Below, piece by piece: positions 1,955-11,784 of a stretch of DNA of 24,761 nt. A program made the position numbers and the translations under genes. The notes under the pieces are model-generated. The model had not been told where the DNA came from and searched no databases. It saw nothing but the letters and a program-made list of their open reading frames with translations. Within the stretch, counting starts at the first letter, position 1. The number at the start of each line of letters is the position of its first letter. The DNA comes from a virus. Where the stretch lies: the IMG/VR virus record IMGVR_UViG_3300040801_000429, positions 1 through 24,761 of that record; one strand, 5' to 3'.

Positions 1955-3385
1955 ATGTTAACGGATTCAGAATTAATTGAGCTTGAAAAACTACTTCATC
2001 AACAGGAAATTGATGATCGCAGAAGCGCATTAATTGATCCTAATCATAAAGACCATACAAAGAATTACAAGTTCATTCAAAAACAGAATAACGAACGTGA
2101 ATACGATTCTAAGGGCAACTTAATAAAAGGCACAAAAATAACCACATTAGAAGGTTCTGCCCGTTCAGGAAAGACAATATCAATAGTTGATGAAACAATT
2201 AGGATTGGACTATACGAGACAGCAAGCACCATATTTATAGTTCGTGAAACTTATGCAGAATTTAAAACCACGCTTTACAAAGATTACAAAGAGCGCTTAG
2301 ATTATTTTGATTTGCCTAATCCATTTCACGATAAAGAAGAGGTTAAGAGTTTTAAAATTGGTAATGCTCGAATTACCTTCCTTGGAGCTGATAAAATCGG
2401 TAAAAAACTAGGTGCCGGATCGGATTACTTATTCTTCAATGAGGTGTTATTCGGAATTAAAGAGAGTGTATTTAAGCAGTTGGTTACTCGTTGTTCTATT
2501 GCGGTGTATTGTGATTATAACCCAGCATTTACAAAACACTGGTTTTATGATAAAGTATTAAAGCGTTCAGATGTTGCTTATTTGCGTACTACTTACAAAG
2601 ATAACCAATACTGCCCACCAGCTCAAAAGCAAGAGATTGAAGCATCCGAACCGTGGGATCATGGAACCTATGATATAATAGATGATGAGCTATTTTACAA
2701 CTATGAGCCAATTGATGAAAACAATCAACCACCAATTAACAAGCGTAATCACGAAAATGGAACCATAGACCAAGAATATTGGATGGTTTACGGCCTTGGA
2801 CTTCGTGGGGCCATGAAAGGACGTATATTCAAAAAAGTAAGATACATTGATGAGTTTCCAGATTTGCCATATATAATTGGAAATGATTTTGGTTTTACAT
2901 CGGACCCGAACGCCACGCTAAAATACACGCAAACCAAAACAGACATCTACATTGAGCCTTTAATTTACGAGCCAATTGAAAGCCCTGAATTACTCGATGA
3001 AGCATTTCAAAGTGTAGGTATAAGCTACGATAGTGTTATCATAGCAGATTCAGCAGATAGGTATGTCAGCGGAAAGCATGGAGTTGTCAAGATGGTCCAG
3101 GACTTGTACCAACTAGGTTACATCAATATTTCAAAGGTATCAAAAACTAAAAGCGTTGCTTATTGGCTTGGAAAGATGAAAACTAAGCGAATAAATATAG
3201 TACGCACAGGAAATAAACACCTAGACGAAGCTATGCAACGTAATTTTGAGAACCTAATATGGAAGGAAATAAACGGTATTCAGTTAAATATTCCAGACGA
3301 TAAGTGCGAGGATCACAATTGCGATGCGTCACGCTATTGCTATATGTCATGGGAGTTCGCTAATTTTAGTGTTGATACGAATTGA
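1955..3385 (+). CDS. terL: Terminase large subunit (packaging ATPase/nuclease)
   Basis: The 476-residue protein has the two domains of the DNA-packaging motor. The N-terminal ATPase shows a Walker A-like loop G67-SARSGKT (67-74) and a Walker B segment YLFFNE (158-163), in which Asn precedes the catalytic Glu. A motif III candidate is CDYNP (186-190). The C-terminal RNase H-like nuclease domain shows the expected acidic residues: D311 in IIGNDFGF, D365 in IIADSADRY and D457 in HNCDASRY, which would bind the two metal ions that cut concatemeric DNA. Length is normal for the family. The ATG at 1955 is used because the closer ATG at 1951 is out of frame and soon stops. The gene ends normally and is followed by a 531-bp non-coding gap instead of directly by the portal gene, which is unusual in this compact region. 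Confidence 0.93.
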   Translation: MLTDSELIELEKLLHQQEIDDRRSALIDPNHKDHTKNYKFIQKQNNEREYDSKGNLIKGTKITTLEGSARSGKTISIVDETIRIGLYETASTIFIVRETYAEFKTTLYKDYKERLDYFDLPNPFHDKEEVKSFKIGNARITFLGADKIGKKLGAGSDYLFFNEVLFGIKESVFKQLVTRCSIAVYCDYNPAFTKHWFYDKVLKRSDVAYLRTTYKDNQYCPPAQKQEIEASEPWDHGTYDIIDDELFYNYEPIDENNQPPINKRNHENGTIDQEYWMVYGLGLRGAMKGRIFKKVRYIDEFPDLPYIIGNDFGFTSDPNATLKYTQTKTDIYIEPLIYEPIESPELLDEAFQSVGISYDSVIIADSADRYVSGKHGVVKMVQDLYQLGYINISKVSKTKSVAYWLGKMKTKRINIVRTGNKHLDEAMQRNFENLIWKEINGIQLNIPDDKCEDHNCDASRYCYMSWEFANFSVDTN

Positions 3386-3411
3386 TTTTTAATAATTATT
3401 ATTATATTTGC
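3382..3411 (+). promoter_or_regulatory. Bacteroidota-type promoter directly after terL
   Basis: TATATTTGC at 3403-3411 is an exact match to the -7 element TAnnTTTG. ATTG at 3381-3384, overlapping the terL stop codon, gives a -33-like box with an 18-bp spacer. Transcription is predicted to start near 3414-3418, exactly where the first stem of the small RNA candidate begins (3414). There is no long reading frame downstream until 3917, so the promoter appears to serve an RNA. Confidence 0.65.
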
Positions 3412-3413
3412 AG

Positions 3414-3490
3414 AAGCGGATTGTAGTTTAACCTTTAGCGGGGTTTTATGAAGTCCTTTCCATCTTGTGGACGTGCCGCTTATTTTTTTT
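3414..3490 (+). ncRNA. Candidate small structured RNA between terL and portal
   Basis: The predicted transcript starts within or just before AAGCGG (3414-3419), which pairs with CCGCTT (3476-3481). A run of eight T (3483-3490) follows immediately, so the closing stem plus U-tract looks like a self-terminating RNA of about 77 nt. Inside are two hairpins: AACCT (3430-3434) with GGGTT (3441-3445), and GTCC (3453-3456) with GGAC (3469-3472). Together these make a three-way junction. The 12-nt loop of the second hairpin contains CCATCTTG (3460-3467), perfectly complementary to CAAGATGG at 3512-3519. No Rfam family is recognised; the size resembles tRNA but the T-arm and anticodon arm are absent. 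Pairings were found by eye, without energy calculation. Confidence 0.5.
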
Positions 3491-3760
3491 ATTTAAAGAT
3501 GGGACATAAGGCAAGATGGTTTGGTTCTACGTGGTAACCTGTAAACGATAAAAAACACGATAAACCCATTTTCTAAGTAAATAAAGGCAGTCAAACCAAA
3601 AACTATGCAATGTCCAACCTTGACAACATAGTCCTTGAAACACTATTTATAGTGCTGAATTTAAAAAAGACTGATCGAAAAGTTTAAGGAGTATAAGAAC
3701 TTACTTAACACCTCAGAAGAGGTCAAGGGCGAAATTACTTTATTTGCTTTGGGGTTTTTT
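3491..3760 (+). ncRNA. Possible larger structured or switching RNA downstream of the small RNA
   Basis: This A/T-rich stretch has no gene longer than a 12-codon frame (ATG 3499, MGHKARWFGSTW, stop at 3535-3537). It holds many complementary segments: AAGATGGG (3496-3503) with CCCATTTT (3565-3572), TGGTTTG (3517-3523) with CAAACCA (3592-3598), and GGACAT (3502-3507) with ATGTCC (3610-3615). The first two cross, as in an H-type pseudoknot; the first and third compete. Local hairpins are CTATG/CATAG enclosing TGTC/GACA (3603-3631), CACTA/TAGTG with a TTTA loop near 3640-3655, and ACCTC/GAGGT (3710-3723). A weak terminator-like end is CAAGG with CTTTG (3724-3728 with 3747-3751) followed by GGG and six T (3755-3760). 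Read-through from the 3403 promoter would make one RNA of about 350 nt. Function unknown. Confidence 0.35.
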
Positions 3761-3867
3761 ATGTAAACCTTCTAATAATTCTAATCTTTAGTTTGTAAGA
3801 TTTCAAGGGTAATAGGGTAACTATATCTAAAATAACAACAAAAAGCTTTAAAATAAAAAAAAATCCT
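3761..3867 (+). other. A/T-rich spacer with a short tandem repeat
   Basis: No credible gene lies here. The only feature noticed is AGGGTAAT at 3806-3813 followed directly by AGGGTAAC at 3814-3821, a tandem octamer with one mismatch, which could be a protein-binding site or chance. The rest is A/T-rich and leads into the -7 box at 3868. Confidence 0.3.
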
Positions 3868-3876
3868 TACATTTGC
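3845..3876 (+). promoter_or_regulatory. Candidate promoter for the head/tail operon
   Basis: TACATTTGC at 3868-3876 exactly matches the Bacteroidota -7 element. The upstream box is weak (CTTTA at 3846-3850, about 17 bp away), so activity may need a phage-encoded activator. Transcription would start near 3881 and place the palindrome at 3891-3911 at about +10 to +30, directly before the portal ATG at 3917. Confidence 0.5.
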
Positions 3877-3890
3877 TACATAATCAAAGG

Positions 3891-3911
3891 ACTGATTAAA
3901 TATTAATCAGT
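3891..3911 (+). promoter_or_regulatory. Perfect 9-bp palindrome just upstream of the portal start
   Basis: The arm ACTGATTAA (3891-3899) is followed by a three-base spacer ATA and the exact reverse complement TTAATCAGT (3903-3911), ending five bases before the ATG at 3917. In DNA it is a good operator for a dimeric repressor or activator acting just downstream of the promoter at 3868. In RNA it is a 9-bp hairpin beside the start codon that could limit ribosome loading. It has no U-tract, so it is not a terminator. Confidence 0.6.
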
Positions 3912-3916
3912 ATTTT

Positions 3917-5644
3917 ATGACAGGAAAAGAATTCATTCTGGAGGGGCTAAACGGCTCGGACTTATCAATTGCTAAAAGGCAACAAAAGCAATTAGATCAT
4001 TTTGTAATATCCGAAGTTCAAGAAGATATATCTATCGAGTACATCAAAGAATGGGCAGATAGAAAGTATATAACTAACGATTATTTCCTTAATTTCGTTA
4101 AAACGGTATTCAAAGACGAAAATTTTAAATCATTTTACAAATACCTACGATACCCATTAGCCTCATCAATTATTATACGTGAAGAAGTTATTCCAGAATT
4201 AGAGCGTGTATTTCATTCAGATGATGCGTATAGCGAATATTACATTAGAGGCAATAAAGAAAAAGAAGTTCAGGAACTAAATAATGATTTATTTGATCGG
4301 GAGTTATTCCAAAATCTAATGTACAATCATAATTCTATCATTGTTACAAAATTAGATGAAAACGGAGAATTAAAACGTGAGTTTATATCGATTGAAAATG
4401 TAGTTGCTATTGAATGTAGTTACAATGATATTCAAAGAGTAGCTTATAAAGGCACAATGCCCAATGAATTTAATGAAGAAATTGAAGGGTATATTTACAT
4501 TGATAACAATGTGTTTGAGTTCTATGAGTTAGGAGAAAAGGATATGATTAATGAGCCTTTAATTATATGGCCACATGGTCAAGATTATACGCCTGTTTGC
4601 TTTACCTCACCAAAACCATATTATCAAAAGAAAAAATATGCAGTACGCTATTCTGTATTCTCAAGCATTCGACCTGATTTAGAAGAGTACGTTTTTTTAA
4701 AGACGATCCAAAGAATGACCGAGCCAAATGGAGCTATTCCGATAGTTACAAAACTTAAAACAAATGAGGTTAAAAAGTCAGGCCAGGCATTAAACAAAGA
4801 CCAAACTAAAGATGGGCTACCATTATCTGCTGAAACTTTAGGCGGTCAACAAGCTGAGTACAATAAGGAATCATTAAATTCAGGCGGTCCAATGCAAGCG
4901 GGAACTATTTATGAAATTCCTGCAATGAAAACAGAGAGTGGCTCCCTCGACATGGATGCGGTTCAAAACTTCATTAAGTTTTTCTACATTCCAACCGAGG
5001 CATTGGAATATCTTAATAACCGAGTAAATGAAATTGAACATAAGATAGTACGTAAAGTAGTAGGTGATTATTCAGAAGCGAATGAATCAGCTAAAAATGA
5101 AAAGCAAGTACAAAAATCTTACGTATCAAAACAAGACAAGCTTAGAAATATATCTAAATGGTTAAGTGAAGTCGCAACCAAGGCAGATAACTACGCACTA
5201 TCTTATTTATTTGGCTCAGGAAATTATGCAGAGCGTTTCTTTGGATCTGATTTCTTTATCGAAACTAAAGATCAGATTTATGAAATGATTAAAAACGCTC
5301 CGAATCCAATCGAGAAAAGAAATTTACTCAAAAGGCTTTCGGGTGTAAATAATAAGGGTAATAAGGACAGTATACAGAAAGACAAAATAATGTATATGCT
5401 ACTTCCATACGCAACTGATGAAGATTTTGATAAAGCTGTTCTTCGTGGTACTATGTCAAATGAAATATTTGAACTACAAACACGCTTTAATTATTGGTTA
5501 AGCTTGTTTGAGGCGAGCTATGGTAGCATAGTATTGTTTTGGCAAGGTATGGGAGATAGCCCCGAAAATGAAAAACTAATCACAATAAATAATTTATTGA
5601 TTGATTTAATAATAAACAACACAAATACAAATGACAATGAGTAA
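3917..5644 (+). CDS. Portal protein
   Basis: The 575-residue protein follows the packaging genes and precedes scaffold and capsid, the canonical portal position. Portals form the 12-subunit ring at one capsid vertex through which DNA is pumped by terminase and to which the tail attaches. The sequence is consistent: a mixed N-terminal region, a beta-rich wing (about 135-280), a polar flexible segment (about 285-330), a long helical stem/crown region with FYIPTEALEYLNNRVNEIEHKIVRK (about 356-380) and helices continuing past 420. There is no signal peptide or membrane segment. The start lies five bases after a palindrome. The end overlaps the next gene by 14 bases (ATGACAATGAG arrangement). I identify it mainly by size, helical pattern and synteny, as portals share little sequence between groups. 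Confidence 0.8.
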   Translation: MTGKEFILEGLNGSDLSIAKRQQKQLDHFVISEVQEDISIEYIKEWADRKYITNDYFLNFVKTVFKDENFKSFYKYLRYPLASSIIIREEVIPELERVFHSDDAYSEYYIRGNKEKEVQELNNDLFDRELFQNLMYNHNSIIVTKLDENGELKREFISIENVVAIECSYNDIQRVAYKGTMPNEFNEEIEGYIYIDNNVFEFYELGEKDMINEPLIIWPHGQDYTPVCFTSPKPYYQKKKYAVRYSVFSSIRPDLEEYVFLKTIQRMTEPNGAIPIVTKLKTNEVKKSGQALNKDQTKDGLPLSAETLGGQQAEYNKESLNSGGPMQAGTIYEIPAMKTESGSLDMDAVQNFIKFFYIPTEALEYLNNRVNEIEHKIVRKVVGDYSEANESAKNEKQVQKSYVSKQDKLRNISKWLSEVATKADNYALSYLFGSGNYAERFFGSDFFIETKDQIYEMIKNAPNPIEKRNLLKRLSGVNNKGNKDSIQKDKIMYMLLPYATDEDFDKAVLRGTMSNEIFELQTRFNYWLSLFEASYGSIVLFWQGMGDSPENEKLITINNLLIDLIINNTNTNDNE

Positions 5645-8890: not shown

Positions 8891-10036
8891 ATGGTATTAG
8901 GAATAACAGAAGATTTTTCATTGCAAGTAGATTTGGATAGTGAATTAACCACTATCCCAAAGAATGGTATTTATATTAATTCCGGGGTTAATCCAATGAT
9001 TACAATGTCTAATCTTCTGTCGTTCTTACCTATCAAAGGTTATTATTTTGAGGCATACGACAATGCTAAAGAATACCTACCATTTAAAGAGAGCAGAAAC
9101 ATCAAAAAGTCCATTGTCGAAGATAATGGCACATTATACCAATGTATCAAAACTTCAACAGGTAACACAGTTACAGATACTGAATTTTGGCTTGAAACAA
9201 ATATCGAAAGTTTGCGTTTAAAGTCATTTCTTTACACCATTTTAGATCGAGTTAATGCTGATTTAGCACTTGAAAATCGACTCATAGACAATCAATACTT
9301 ATACGAAATCGGAAAGTTTAAACACTTGCCCGAAGGAGATTATTTTGGTTGGGCTATTGAGCCAAAGAACAGCGATTATGTCAAGTTAACATTAAATGAG
9401 CTATCTATCCAAAACGATATATCGGGTTTAGTAAATGTATATGTCGTAAACCAAGGGGAGCTAATTGATACATTGCAAGTTGAAGGAGGTGACGGAAAAG
9501 TCAAATTTGAAAGAACTGATTATGATTTTTACGGAAAAGGAACTTTTTATTTTCTTATTGAAAAAGAGGAAATTTACAGAAAAAATAAGTATGTAGATTG
9601 GCAGCGCTACGAAGGTTTTGTGGCGTACCCTGTAACGGCTATTGGAACGAGTTGGGATGCTCTTGACATTAATCCAACGGGGTCAGCAAATGGTGTGGGT
9701 TTGAATATTTCAGCCACACTTGAATCAAATGTTTACTTAGAAAACTGTCTAAAAAACATCGCTTATTACGTCCGTTCAACATTCGAGTACATGGCACTTC
9801 AGCTATTTGCTCAAAACTCAAATACTAGATTAAACGCAACTGTCAGAGATCAAAGAGATCAAGTTGATGCAAAAATTGTATTAGCTGAATTGAAAGACAA
9901 CAGTAGTGATACTGAAAGCGTTGTGAAAAGGTATTTGAAACAAAGAAAAGAAGCTTTGTTGGTAATTCAAAAAACTTTTGATGCTCACCTTCATAAAGAC
10001 AATGATGGGATAACAGTAACAGTAAGTAGCGTATAA
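8891..10036 (+). CDS. Phage structural protein of unknown function (head/neck region)
   Basis: The 381-residue protein is not recognised as a named family. Residues about 75-104 hold ESRNIKKSIVEDNGTLYQCI followed by a Trp (YQCIKTSTGNTVTDTEFW). This resembles the small aromatic module of chitin-binding type 3-like domains that recur in phage structural proteins, so it may bind a surface polysaccharide or another protein. The rest is mixed alpha/beta, with a C-terminal helical end (VRDQRDQVDAKIVLAELKD, then VVKRYLKQRKEALLVIQKTFDAHLHKD). Position between capsid/decoration and the small connector gene suggests a head-completion, neck or decoration role. It begins 11 bp after the previous stop. 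Its TAA overlaps the next ATG by one base (TAATG), a sign of translational coupling. Confidence 0.55.
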   Translation: MVLGITEDFSLQVDLDSELTTIPKNGIYINSGVNPMITMSNLLSFLPIKGYYFEAYDNAKEYLPFKESRNIKKSIVEDNGTLYQCIKTSTGNTVTDTEFWLETNIESLRLKSFLYTILDRVNADLALENRLIDNQYLYEIGKFKHLPEGDYFGWAIEPKNSDYVKLTLNELSIQNDISGLVNVYVVNQGELIDTLQVEGGDGKVKFERTDYDFYGKGTFYFLIEKEEIYRKNKYVDWQRYEGFVAYPVTAIGTSWDALDINPTGSANGVGLNISATLESNVYLENCLKNIAYYVRSTFEYMALQLFAQNSNTRLNATVRDQRDQVDAKIVLAELKDNSSDTESVVKRYLKQRKEALLVIQKTFDAHLHKDNDGITVTVSSV

Positions 10037-10581
10037 TGGCTAATTTAATACAAATACCAAATTGCATAGGCGTTGATTGCTCAATAAAGAGCGTTCAAAC
10101 TGTGATATATGAGTCGCTTCAAAAAATATGGAGTGCTAATTGGAACTGTTACCCACGTGTATATAAAAACAAGAAGTATTCACAAGAGAATGGATATTTC
10201 TTTGTTCCTGAATTTTTGCAGGGAAATCATGAATATACAACAGATACGTTATTTGATGATACAGTAGATGTGGTAAGTTACTTCTTAGTCGACGATAATA
10301 GACCGTTTAATGAGGATAACACCACCGTTGAAGTATCATTGATATTTTCGTGTTTGATTGATAAGCTTTACGACAGACCTCAAAAACCAGATGAAGAAAT
10401 GCACCGAGATATTATCAATGTACTTAATGATCTACCTCCAACATGGGAGAAGAATAGAATGAGTACAGGAGTAGATGAGGTGTATAGGGAATTCATCAAA
10501 AATGGATTGAATTACAGCGACATGAGTAATCGACACCTAGTAAGGTTTGATTTTGATGTCGTTTACGATTATAATTGTTAA
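10036..10581 (+). CDS. Probable head-tail connector or tail terminator protein
   Basis: The 181-residue protein starts on the last base of the preceding stop codon and lies immediately upstream of the tail tube gene. In siphophages that slot is normally filled by the tail terminator or a neck protein that joins head and tail. The sequence is alpha/beta with an N-terminal cysteine-containing segment (IPNCIGVDCSIKSVQTVIYESLQKIW), a central DDTVDVVSYFLVDD, and a C-terminal strand set with HLVRFDFDVVYDYNC. This pattern (helices flanking a sheet whose last strand ends the protein) suits tail terminator folds. No catalytic motif is visible. The function is inferred from position only. Confidence 0.45.
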   Translation: MANLIQIPNCIGVDCSIKSVQTVIYESLQKIWSANWNCYPRVYKNKKYSQENGYFFVPEFLQGNHEYTTDTLFDDTVDVVSYFLVDDNRPFNEDNTTVEVSLIFSCLIDKLYDRPQKPDEEMHRDIINVLNDLPPTWEKNRMSTGVDEVYREFIKNGLNYSDMSNRHLVRFDFDVVYDYNC

Positions 10582-10600
10582 ACACATAAAATTTAAAATT

Positions 10601-11557
10601 ATGGCAAATCAAATTCCGGGCTGTTTTTGTGACGGAAAGTTACCAAATTCAGGCTTACCGAATAAGCAAGAGATATTCGGTATTTTAACGGGTAAATATG
10701 TTACCCCTCTAGTTGCCAATGATGGCACTAGAAACTCATTAAACTTAGCAGCTTCAGACTTAGGTCAAGAGTTGTTAGATAAGATTAATCATCCAGACCC
10801 ATCAAAGCGTTGGTATCCTTATTACAAACTAAAGAATGTAGGTGAGGATCAAGCAGATGCAAACTTTGATGAAGCGGATGACGGTTCTAAGGAATTCTTA
10901 AGCAAAGGGATTAAATCAAAGACTATGGAAATGTGGTCAAGAGGAAATCAGTACTTTGCTAAGGTGCCGGGTAACTGTGTTGAATTTGGTGAGTATGATA
11001 TTGACGATTGTGCAAATGTTAGAGGTGAAAAAGAGTCTTTAGATTCTACTGAACTTTTTCCACGAGAGGTTAACCACCGATCAATTGATAATAAGTTCAT
11101 GAACAAAACAAACGACATGACTCAAAAAATCATTATCACTTATGATTATGATAAGCAGTCAAGTGACGAAAATCAGTACATGGTTCCAGCGTCAGCTTTT
11201 GCCCCTCACAACCCATTGAAGTTGTCAGGAATGCTTGATACGTATCTAACTTTGCAAGCATTGACAAATACAACTATTCAAGTAGATGCTACTTTAGGTT
11301 TTGGAACTGCAATTGACTTAATTAAAGTACAGGGTCTAGTTACTGCGGATTTTGAGGTGATTAACTTAACCACGTCCTCAACTCTTACTGTAACTGTAAC
11401 TGAATCTACTACTGTTGCTGGACAGTATGTGATTGAGATAGATGCAGGTGACGCTCCAACAGCTTCAGATGTATTAACTGTTAAAGTCTTTAAGGCTGCG
11501 ACAGGTAACAACATTAAAGGCAAGGAGTCTGCTGCAACTCAAGTTATTGCAGTATAA
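10601..11557 (+). CDS. Major tail tube protein with C-terminal Ig-like extension
   Basis: I start this 318-residue gene at ATG 10601 (MANQIPGCFCDG), preceded by the typical AATTTAAAATT leader. A longer frame from 10547 would overlap the previous gene by 35 bases and add a hydrophobic, implausible extension. Residues 1-220 form the tube-like domain with several strands (ITYDYDKQSSDENQYMVPASAF near its end). Residues about 225-318 (IQVDATLGFGTAIDLIKVQG to the end) are Thr/Val-rich and look like a bacterial Ig-like domain, a common decoration on siphophage tube proteins that projects from the tail and may bind cell-surface glycans. Position before chaperones and tape measure supports the call. 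The stop overlaps the next ATG (TAATG), and a strong hairpin terminator lies 15 bases downstream. Confidence 0.7.
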   Translation: MANQIPGCFCDGKLPNSGLPNKQEIFGILTGKYVTPLVANDGTRNSLNLAASDLGQELLDKINHPDPSKRWYPYYKLKNVGEDQADANFDEADDGSKEFLSKGIKSKTMEMWSRGNQYFAKVPGNCVEFGEYDIDDCANVRGEKESLDSTELFPREVNHRSIDNKFMNKTNDMTQKIIITYDYDKQSSDENQYMVPASAFAPHNPLKLSGMLDTYLTLQALTNTTIQVDATLGFGTAIDLIKVQGLVTADFEVINLTTSSTLTVTVTESTTVAGQYVIEIDAGDAPTASDVLTVKVFKAATGNNIKGKESAATQVIAV

Positions 11558-11784
11558 TGGATATTAAAGAGAAAAACGGTGCTGTCATTATAGGCGAGCA
11601 CCGTTTTTTAAAAACTTGGCTAAAATCTACAAGACTCCAGCAGGTTTTGAGAATTTGTAAAGCCAAACCAAAGGATGTTGTTACCGAGGCATGGAATTAC
11701 GCCAACGGTATTAAAACAACCCCGACAAAATCCAGCACAAAAAGCAAAACTAAAAGCTCAAAAAAGAGCGATGAAAAAGGTTAG
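11557..11784 (+). CDS. Small basic protein after the tail tube gene, unknown function
   Basis: The 75-residue protein starts on the final base of the tail tube stop codon (TAATG). Its first 50 residues look folded (VIIGEHRFLKTWLKSTRLQQVLRICK, then VVTEAWNYANG). The end is a Lys/Ser/Thr-rich low-complexity tail (from about 54, with repeats of KS, KT and KSS). The product is strongly basic. A perfect 12-bp inverted repeat with a T6 tract (11572-11609) lies inside codons 6 to 18, so the gene is likely expressed only by the fraction of transcripts that read through. Small genes here in siphophages often encode tail assembly factors; I infer that role weakly. Confidence 0.6.
   Translation: MDIKEKNGAVIIGEHRFLKTWLKSTRLQQVLRICKAKPKDVVTEAWNYANGIKTTPTKSSTKSKTKSSKKSDEKG
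11572..11609 (+). terminator. Strong intrinsic terminator inside the next reading frame, after the tail tube gene
   Basis: AAAAACGGTGCT (11572-11583) and AGCACCGTTTTT (11597-11608) are perfect 12-base complements with a 13-nt loop. The 3' arm ends in a run of six T (11604-11609). This is a textbook terminator; its A/T outer pairs and T-tract overlap. It starts 15 bases after the tail tube stop but lies within the coding sequence of the next gene, so it acts as an attenuator between tube and assembly genes. Confidence 0.8.

Follow-up and report, generated by a model that had tools for sequence, protein, structure and literature searches.

The question raised by this locus is what occupies the 531-bp gap (positions 3386-3916) between the genes for the terminase large subunit (terL) and the portal protein of a tailed phage. 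The window, i.e., the whole stretch of DNA that was analysed, comprises 24,761 nucleotides of a virus record (24.8 kb). A sequence-only reading had proposed that the beginning of the gap encodes an autonomous small RNA with its own promoter, a branched structure, and a terminator. The observation is partly confirmed here, and its interpretation is partly supported. The reading that we prefer, with a probability of about 0.5, is that the gap is a moron-like cargo slot free of open reading frames (ORFs), which has its own predicted promoter and gives a short or leaky transcript lacking any conserved or unusually stable structure.

The genes recognized in the record (PHROGs and Pfam) run in one direction and include terL, portal, virion structural genes, a tail gene, and a tape measure gene. 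TerL relatives are associated with Flavobacterium, Chryseobacterium, Cellulophaga, Bacteroides, and other hosts, of which nearly all are Bacteroidota. Such relatives were obtained from TerL alignments; a portal query in IMG/VR and TerL alone in genomes gave none. The features discussed below are listed in Table 1.

Table 1. Features in and around the terL-portal gap (positions are those of the window).
Feature	Position	Strand	Basis
terL (terminase large subunit, 476 aa), immediately preceding the gap	1955-3385	+	PHROG 3717/5653/979, Pfam Terminase_3
TATATTTG, predicted -7 box of a Bacteroidota sigma-A promoter	3403-3410	+	Sequence; T-12 to G-5 rule (PMC6847099)
AAGCGG, 5′ arm of the candidate closing stem P1	3414-3419	+	Sequence; pair probability ~0.5-0.75 in isolated RNA, ~0 in RNA to 3502 or longer
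CCGCTT, 3′ arm of P1	3476-3481	+	Sequence; same pair probabilities as the 5′ arm
Rival helix, CCATCTTGT (3460-3468) / GCAAGATGG (3511-3519); a second AAGATGG (3496-3502) pairs with the same arm	3460-3519	+	Pair probabilities
T8 run, candidate end of a 76-nt transcript (3415-3490)	3483-3490	+	One of two + strand T8 runs; unmatched in the terminator scan
Short ORF, 25 aa, probably due to chance	3610-3687	+	Coding score within random range; no relative
TACATTTG, likely promoter of the portal operon	3868-3875	+	TAnnTTTG box, also upstream of portal in relatives
Portal protein (575 aa), immediately following the gap	3917-5644	+	PHROG 7376, E 2.7e-32

It had been argued that terL and portal usually abut, and that a gap of this length therefore calls for a special explanation. 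Across the 23 related loci whose portal gene is homologous, several of which are near-duplicates, the interval ranges from approximately 20 to 1940 bp (one of the 23 values is negative, probably owing to a misplaced start), so that a gap of 531 bp is ordinary for the group. Most of the long intervals carry small ORFs that differ between phages, and in the nearest relative (TerL 72% identical), four ORFs encoding 66-95 aa occupy an interval of 1642 bp. The present phage is the only one with a long gap lacking an ORF of at least 40 aa. Some of the cargo ORFs are accompanied by signals of their own, such as a TAnnTTTG box 22-33 nt upstream (L008 and L021) or a terminator (L020, 6122-6145). The variability of the interval in the 23 loci is a more secure outcome than the small-RNA reading, and the description of this interval as a cargo slot with a promoter box at its end, just before portal, provides a useful annotation rule for the group.

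A variable slot of ~0.3-1.9 kb with changing small ORFs is present in L002, L006-L009, L012, L018, L020, L021, L076, L078, L092, L099, and L100, and is usually closed by a TAnnTTTG box shortly before portal. In L006 and L007, the first 221 bases after terL contain a conserved small frame with CxxC and CHNC motifs (recognized by eye), whose putative product looks like a small zinc-binding protein.

With regard to coding potential, no ORF of at least 60 aa is found in 3386-3916, in agreement with the earlier statement that the region holds no gene. The best coding score of the gap, 4.5 per 99 nt, corresponds to the 5th percentile of this phage's genes and is equalled by 24% of random sequences, and the 29-aa ORF at 3448-3537 scores -10.5. 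No relative of the small gap frames was detected in phages, Pfam, or related loci. A coding or decayed gene was rejected as an explanation, since the signal lies within the random range and shows no similarity to the genes of relatives. An A6 run is located at 3663-3668, where a one-base change of frame would join 3610-3687 to a frame ending at 3765 (51 aa).

Bacteroidota promoters carry a TAnnTTTG box, which in Flavobacterium johnsoniae spans -12 to -5 and avoids G at both free positions (PMC6847099). TATATTTG fits the F. johnsoniae rule, which places the predicted transcription start at ~3415, inside the intergenic stretch and at the second base of the AAGCGG arm. The box lies 17 bp 3′ of the terL stop codon, and the TTG at 3382-3384 is a possible -33 element. 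In the 1446 nt of intergenic + strand sequence, TAHHTTTG occurs four times (at 822, 849, 3403, and 3868) as opposed to 0.95 expected (P 0.013). By the rules for Bacteroidota, the promoter at 3403 is a good one that would be expected to fire; the claim that the gap has its own promoter is well supported by the exact box, as a prediction from sequence. In addition, 20 of the 23 relatives have a TAnnTTTG box in the 120 nt that precede the predicted start of portal. In three short-gap relatives (L030, L031, and L033), the portal promoter is located 39 nt after terL and resembles the 3403 box. The latter may have arrived with the cargo or may be an old portal promoter that was split off by an insertion. 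The portal leader (3886-3916) contains an imperfect hairpin, AAAGGACTGATTAA / TTAATCAGTATTTT, directly 5′ of the start codon.

The promoter box, both arms of P1, and the T8 run are found exactly where the sequence-only reading had put them, and the two arms are perfect Watson-Crick complements. Two details need correction: the box and the stem are separated by three bases (3411-3413) instead of about four, and the T8 run, said to follow the stem at once, is preceded by a single A (3482). The proposed branched structure did not withstand comparison with shuffled sequences, as the fold of 3410-3490 has -16.9 kcal/mol vs. -16.1 ± 2.7 for the shuffles (z -0.30), and 3415-3482 gives z -0.24. The second inner hairpin is comprised of 4 bp with a 12-nt loop. 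In an isolated RNA of 72-81 nt, P1 is predicted to form with a probability of ~50-75%. The claim of a terminator is not borne out by the terminator scan, which found no standard hairpin at 3483, and the 6-bp P1 would enclose a 56-nt loop. The only other + strand run of eight T, at 764, directly follows a clean terminator hairpin. Termination of the gap transcript at its own T8 run is possible but weakly supported.

When 411 windows, each of 120 nt, were scanned, those of the gap were unremarkable in fold, and other places reached z -5 to -6. The entire 3411-3770 is somewhat better folded than its shuffles (z -2.0, 2/100 shuffles), which speaks against the slot reading; a larger structured RNA across 3411-3770 was considered and rejected, given that its z is only -2.0 and that conservation is lacking. 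Elsewhere in the window, 11521-11640 is predicted to form a very stable RNA (z -5.2, no shuffle as good), far stronger than 3410-3490, in which the helix GGAGUCU/AGACUCC encloses a 12-bp hairpin resembling a terminator, AAAACGGUGC..GCACCGUUUUUU, in the first codons of ORF 11557-11784. This region has no Rfam match at the gathering score and no DNA relative among phage records. A fold z of -6.4 was obtained for 10381-10800, which extends from the end of ORF 10036-10581 into the start of the next gene.

The arrangement of the motifs is less ordinary than the fold. When this stretch is shuffled, 0.1-0.5% of the shuffles have ends that close with 6 bp of Watson-Crick pairs, at least four of them G-C; if G-U pairs are admitted, the figure is 4-16%. 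Under a strict rule, a promoter box must be joined within 10 nt by a 6-bp arm containing four or more G-C, and the complement of this arm must precede a run of at least five T. This rule was satisfied by 0/400 and 0/1500 random windows, and a looser one by 2.5%. Because both rules are post hoc, the strict one having been written after the hit was seen, the support that they lend to a short transcript is real but modest. The strict rule found two sites in 0.83 Mb of other loci, which represent one phage included twice. The exact coincidence of the stem with the predicted start, together with the rare T8 run behind it, is rarer than chance under the strict rule and argues against the slot reading.

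Relatives of the candidate RNA were sought in several collections. Rfam gave no match over 3300-3950 at the gathering threshold, nor when E values up to 5 were accepted, and neither tRNA nor tmRNA was found. Nothing similar to the gap sequence was detected among 50,697 phage records, plasmids gave just two short weak matches, and blastn and nhmmer revealed no relative of the gap in the TerL-related loci. Two blastn matches in 397 genomes of one bacterial family (L111 and L112) are both within unrelated genes and were dismissed as chance; the same holds for the single match of four exact patterns in IMG/VR (L102), which lies on an unrelated GC-rich contig. The covariance search that had been suggested, run with a single-sequence model (R1), had the query as its sole match in 99 sources (812,702 bases), and R1 found nothing in 395 genomes of the phylum, where the model has no positive control. 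None of these searches gave a homologue in which P1 or the two competing helices described below might covary. The absence of relatives may reflect thin sampling, with only one close relative known, and to that extent it would count against the slot reading. A comparison with the 23 gene starts in the window gave no antisense target beyond chance (best z -1.5). The list of repeats includes an 8-bp match between 3452-3459 and the portal leader (3886-3893), although duplex energy gives the portal start a low rank.

A further point is how the fold would change in a longer transcript. CCATCTT may pair with AAGATGG at 3496-3502 or at 3513-3519, and either pairing is predicted to replace and abolish P1. 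The first has a probability of ~0.96 from transcript end 3502, at which P1 drops to ~1% or less, and the helix with 3511-3519 reaches 0.87-0.99 from transcript end 3518 on. In silico, the gap would contain mutually exclusive helices of the terminator/antiterminator type, which raises the alternative of an upstream promoter of the portal operon with an attenuating leader, where P1 and T8 stop transcription unless the helix 3460-3468/3511-3519 forms. The exclusive pairing with its sharp switch at 3502, as well as the resemblance of the 3403 box to the portal promoter of the short-gap relatives, would suit such a leader. However, chance alone should yield helices of 7-9 bp in AT-rich sequences of such lengths (by our estimate), the late helix would arise only once T8 had been passed, conservation is absent, and portal has a promoter box of its own, which makes attenuation quite unlikely. 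That the gap gives rise to a true autonomous small RNA (~76 nt, 3415-3490), which P1 would close and T8 would end, and which would be lineage-specific and act on host or phage targets by base pairing or by protein binding, appears doubtful yet worth entertaining: the good promoter, the stem at the predicted start with the rare T8 right behind it, and the strict combination in 0/1500 random windows stand against a fold z of -0.3, the missing standard terminator hairpin, the absence of homologues in the searches, and gene-start targets within chance. It was reported that 27 of 49 high-confidence Bacteroides small RNAs are strain-specific (PMC7366714), so that absent relatives are compatible with a small RNA.

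The two ideas may also be combined, in that the slot could carry a lineage-specific small RNA, with the choice between stopping at T8 and forming the later helix resulting in either a short RNA or read-through to portal; we consider this unlikely. To our knowledge, late transcription of Bacteroidota phages has been little studied; a short RNA, if truly made here, would mean that the packaging region of one of them encodes a small RNA. A small protein gene (ORF 3448-3537 or the frame-broken 51-aa ORF 3610-3765) would accord with the small proteins encoded by the slot in relatives and with the 5th-percentile score, but the frequency of that score in random sequences, the negative score of the 29-aa ORF, and the lack of relatives make it improbable. 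A packaging RNA of the motor like phi29 pRNA, one of the roles that had been suggested, shares with the candidate nothing except the position between terL and portal. The candidate is too short and wrongly placed, has no Rfam match even at E 5, is absent from every TerL relative examined, and accompanies an ordinary Terminase_3-type large subunit; this role is barely credible.

The moron-like slot is the reading that we favour, and the gap lengths and ORFs of relatives, the box or terminator that accompanies the cargo in some of them, the promoter match and enrichment, and the absence of coding signal, stable fold, and relatives all argue for it. Under the slot reading, 3386-3916 would be this phage's version of a variable slot into which relatives put differing small genes. 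A promoter of the type used by the main sigma factor of the host, just after terL, would drive transcription of the slot from ~3415, and the RNA would probably end partly at T8, the remainder continuing towards the portal operon, which would also have its own promoter at 3868. The unit would be a young or decayed moron-like element, whose transcript probably has no function, and not an established regulatory or packaging RNA.

Among known systems, phi29 pRNA measures 120-174 nt, has its gene at the end of the genome, and is considered to be confined to the phi29 group (PMC11476376). Both are RNAs, known or candidate, near phage packaging genes, whereas the ~76-nt candidate differs in its terL-portal site, sequence, structure, and Terminase_3-type TerL, and has no Rfam match. 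Attenuators likewise have two mutually exclusive helices around a T-run; in contrast to them, the present case has no conservation, a non-canonical terminator helix, and an only putative regulated gene. The intergenic small RNAs of Bacteroidota, such as GibS and other small RNAs of B. thetaiotaomicron (PMC7366714), share with the candidate the TAnnTTTG promoter, the small size, the intergenic location, and the lineage specificity, while the candidate lies in a phage late region, is predicted from sequence, and lacks a clear hairpin of an intrinsic terminator. Phage cargo units of the moron type have been described with their own promoter and terminator (PMC2147016). Like them, the unit lies between two conserved late genes, is missing or replaced in relatives, and has a predicted promoter of its own; it differs in that its putative terminator is comprised of T8 and a 6-bp stem with a 56-nt loop, and in that no recognizable gene is present. 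Since it carries no gene, it is called moron-like and not a moron.
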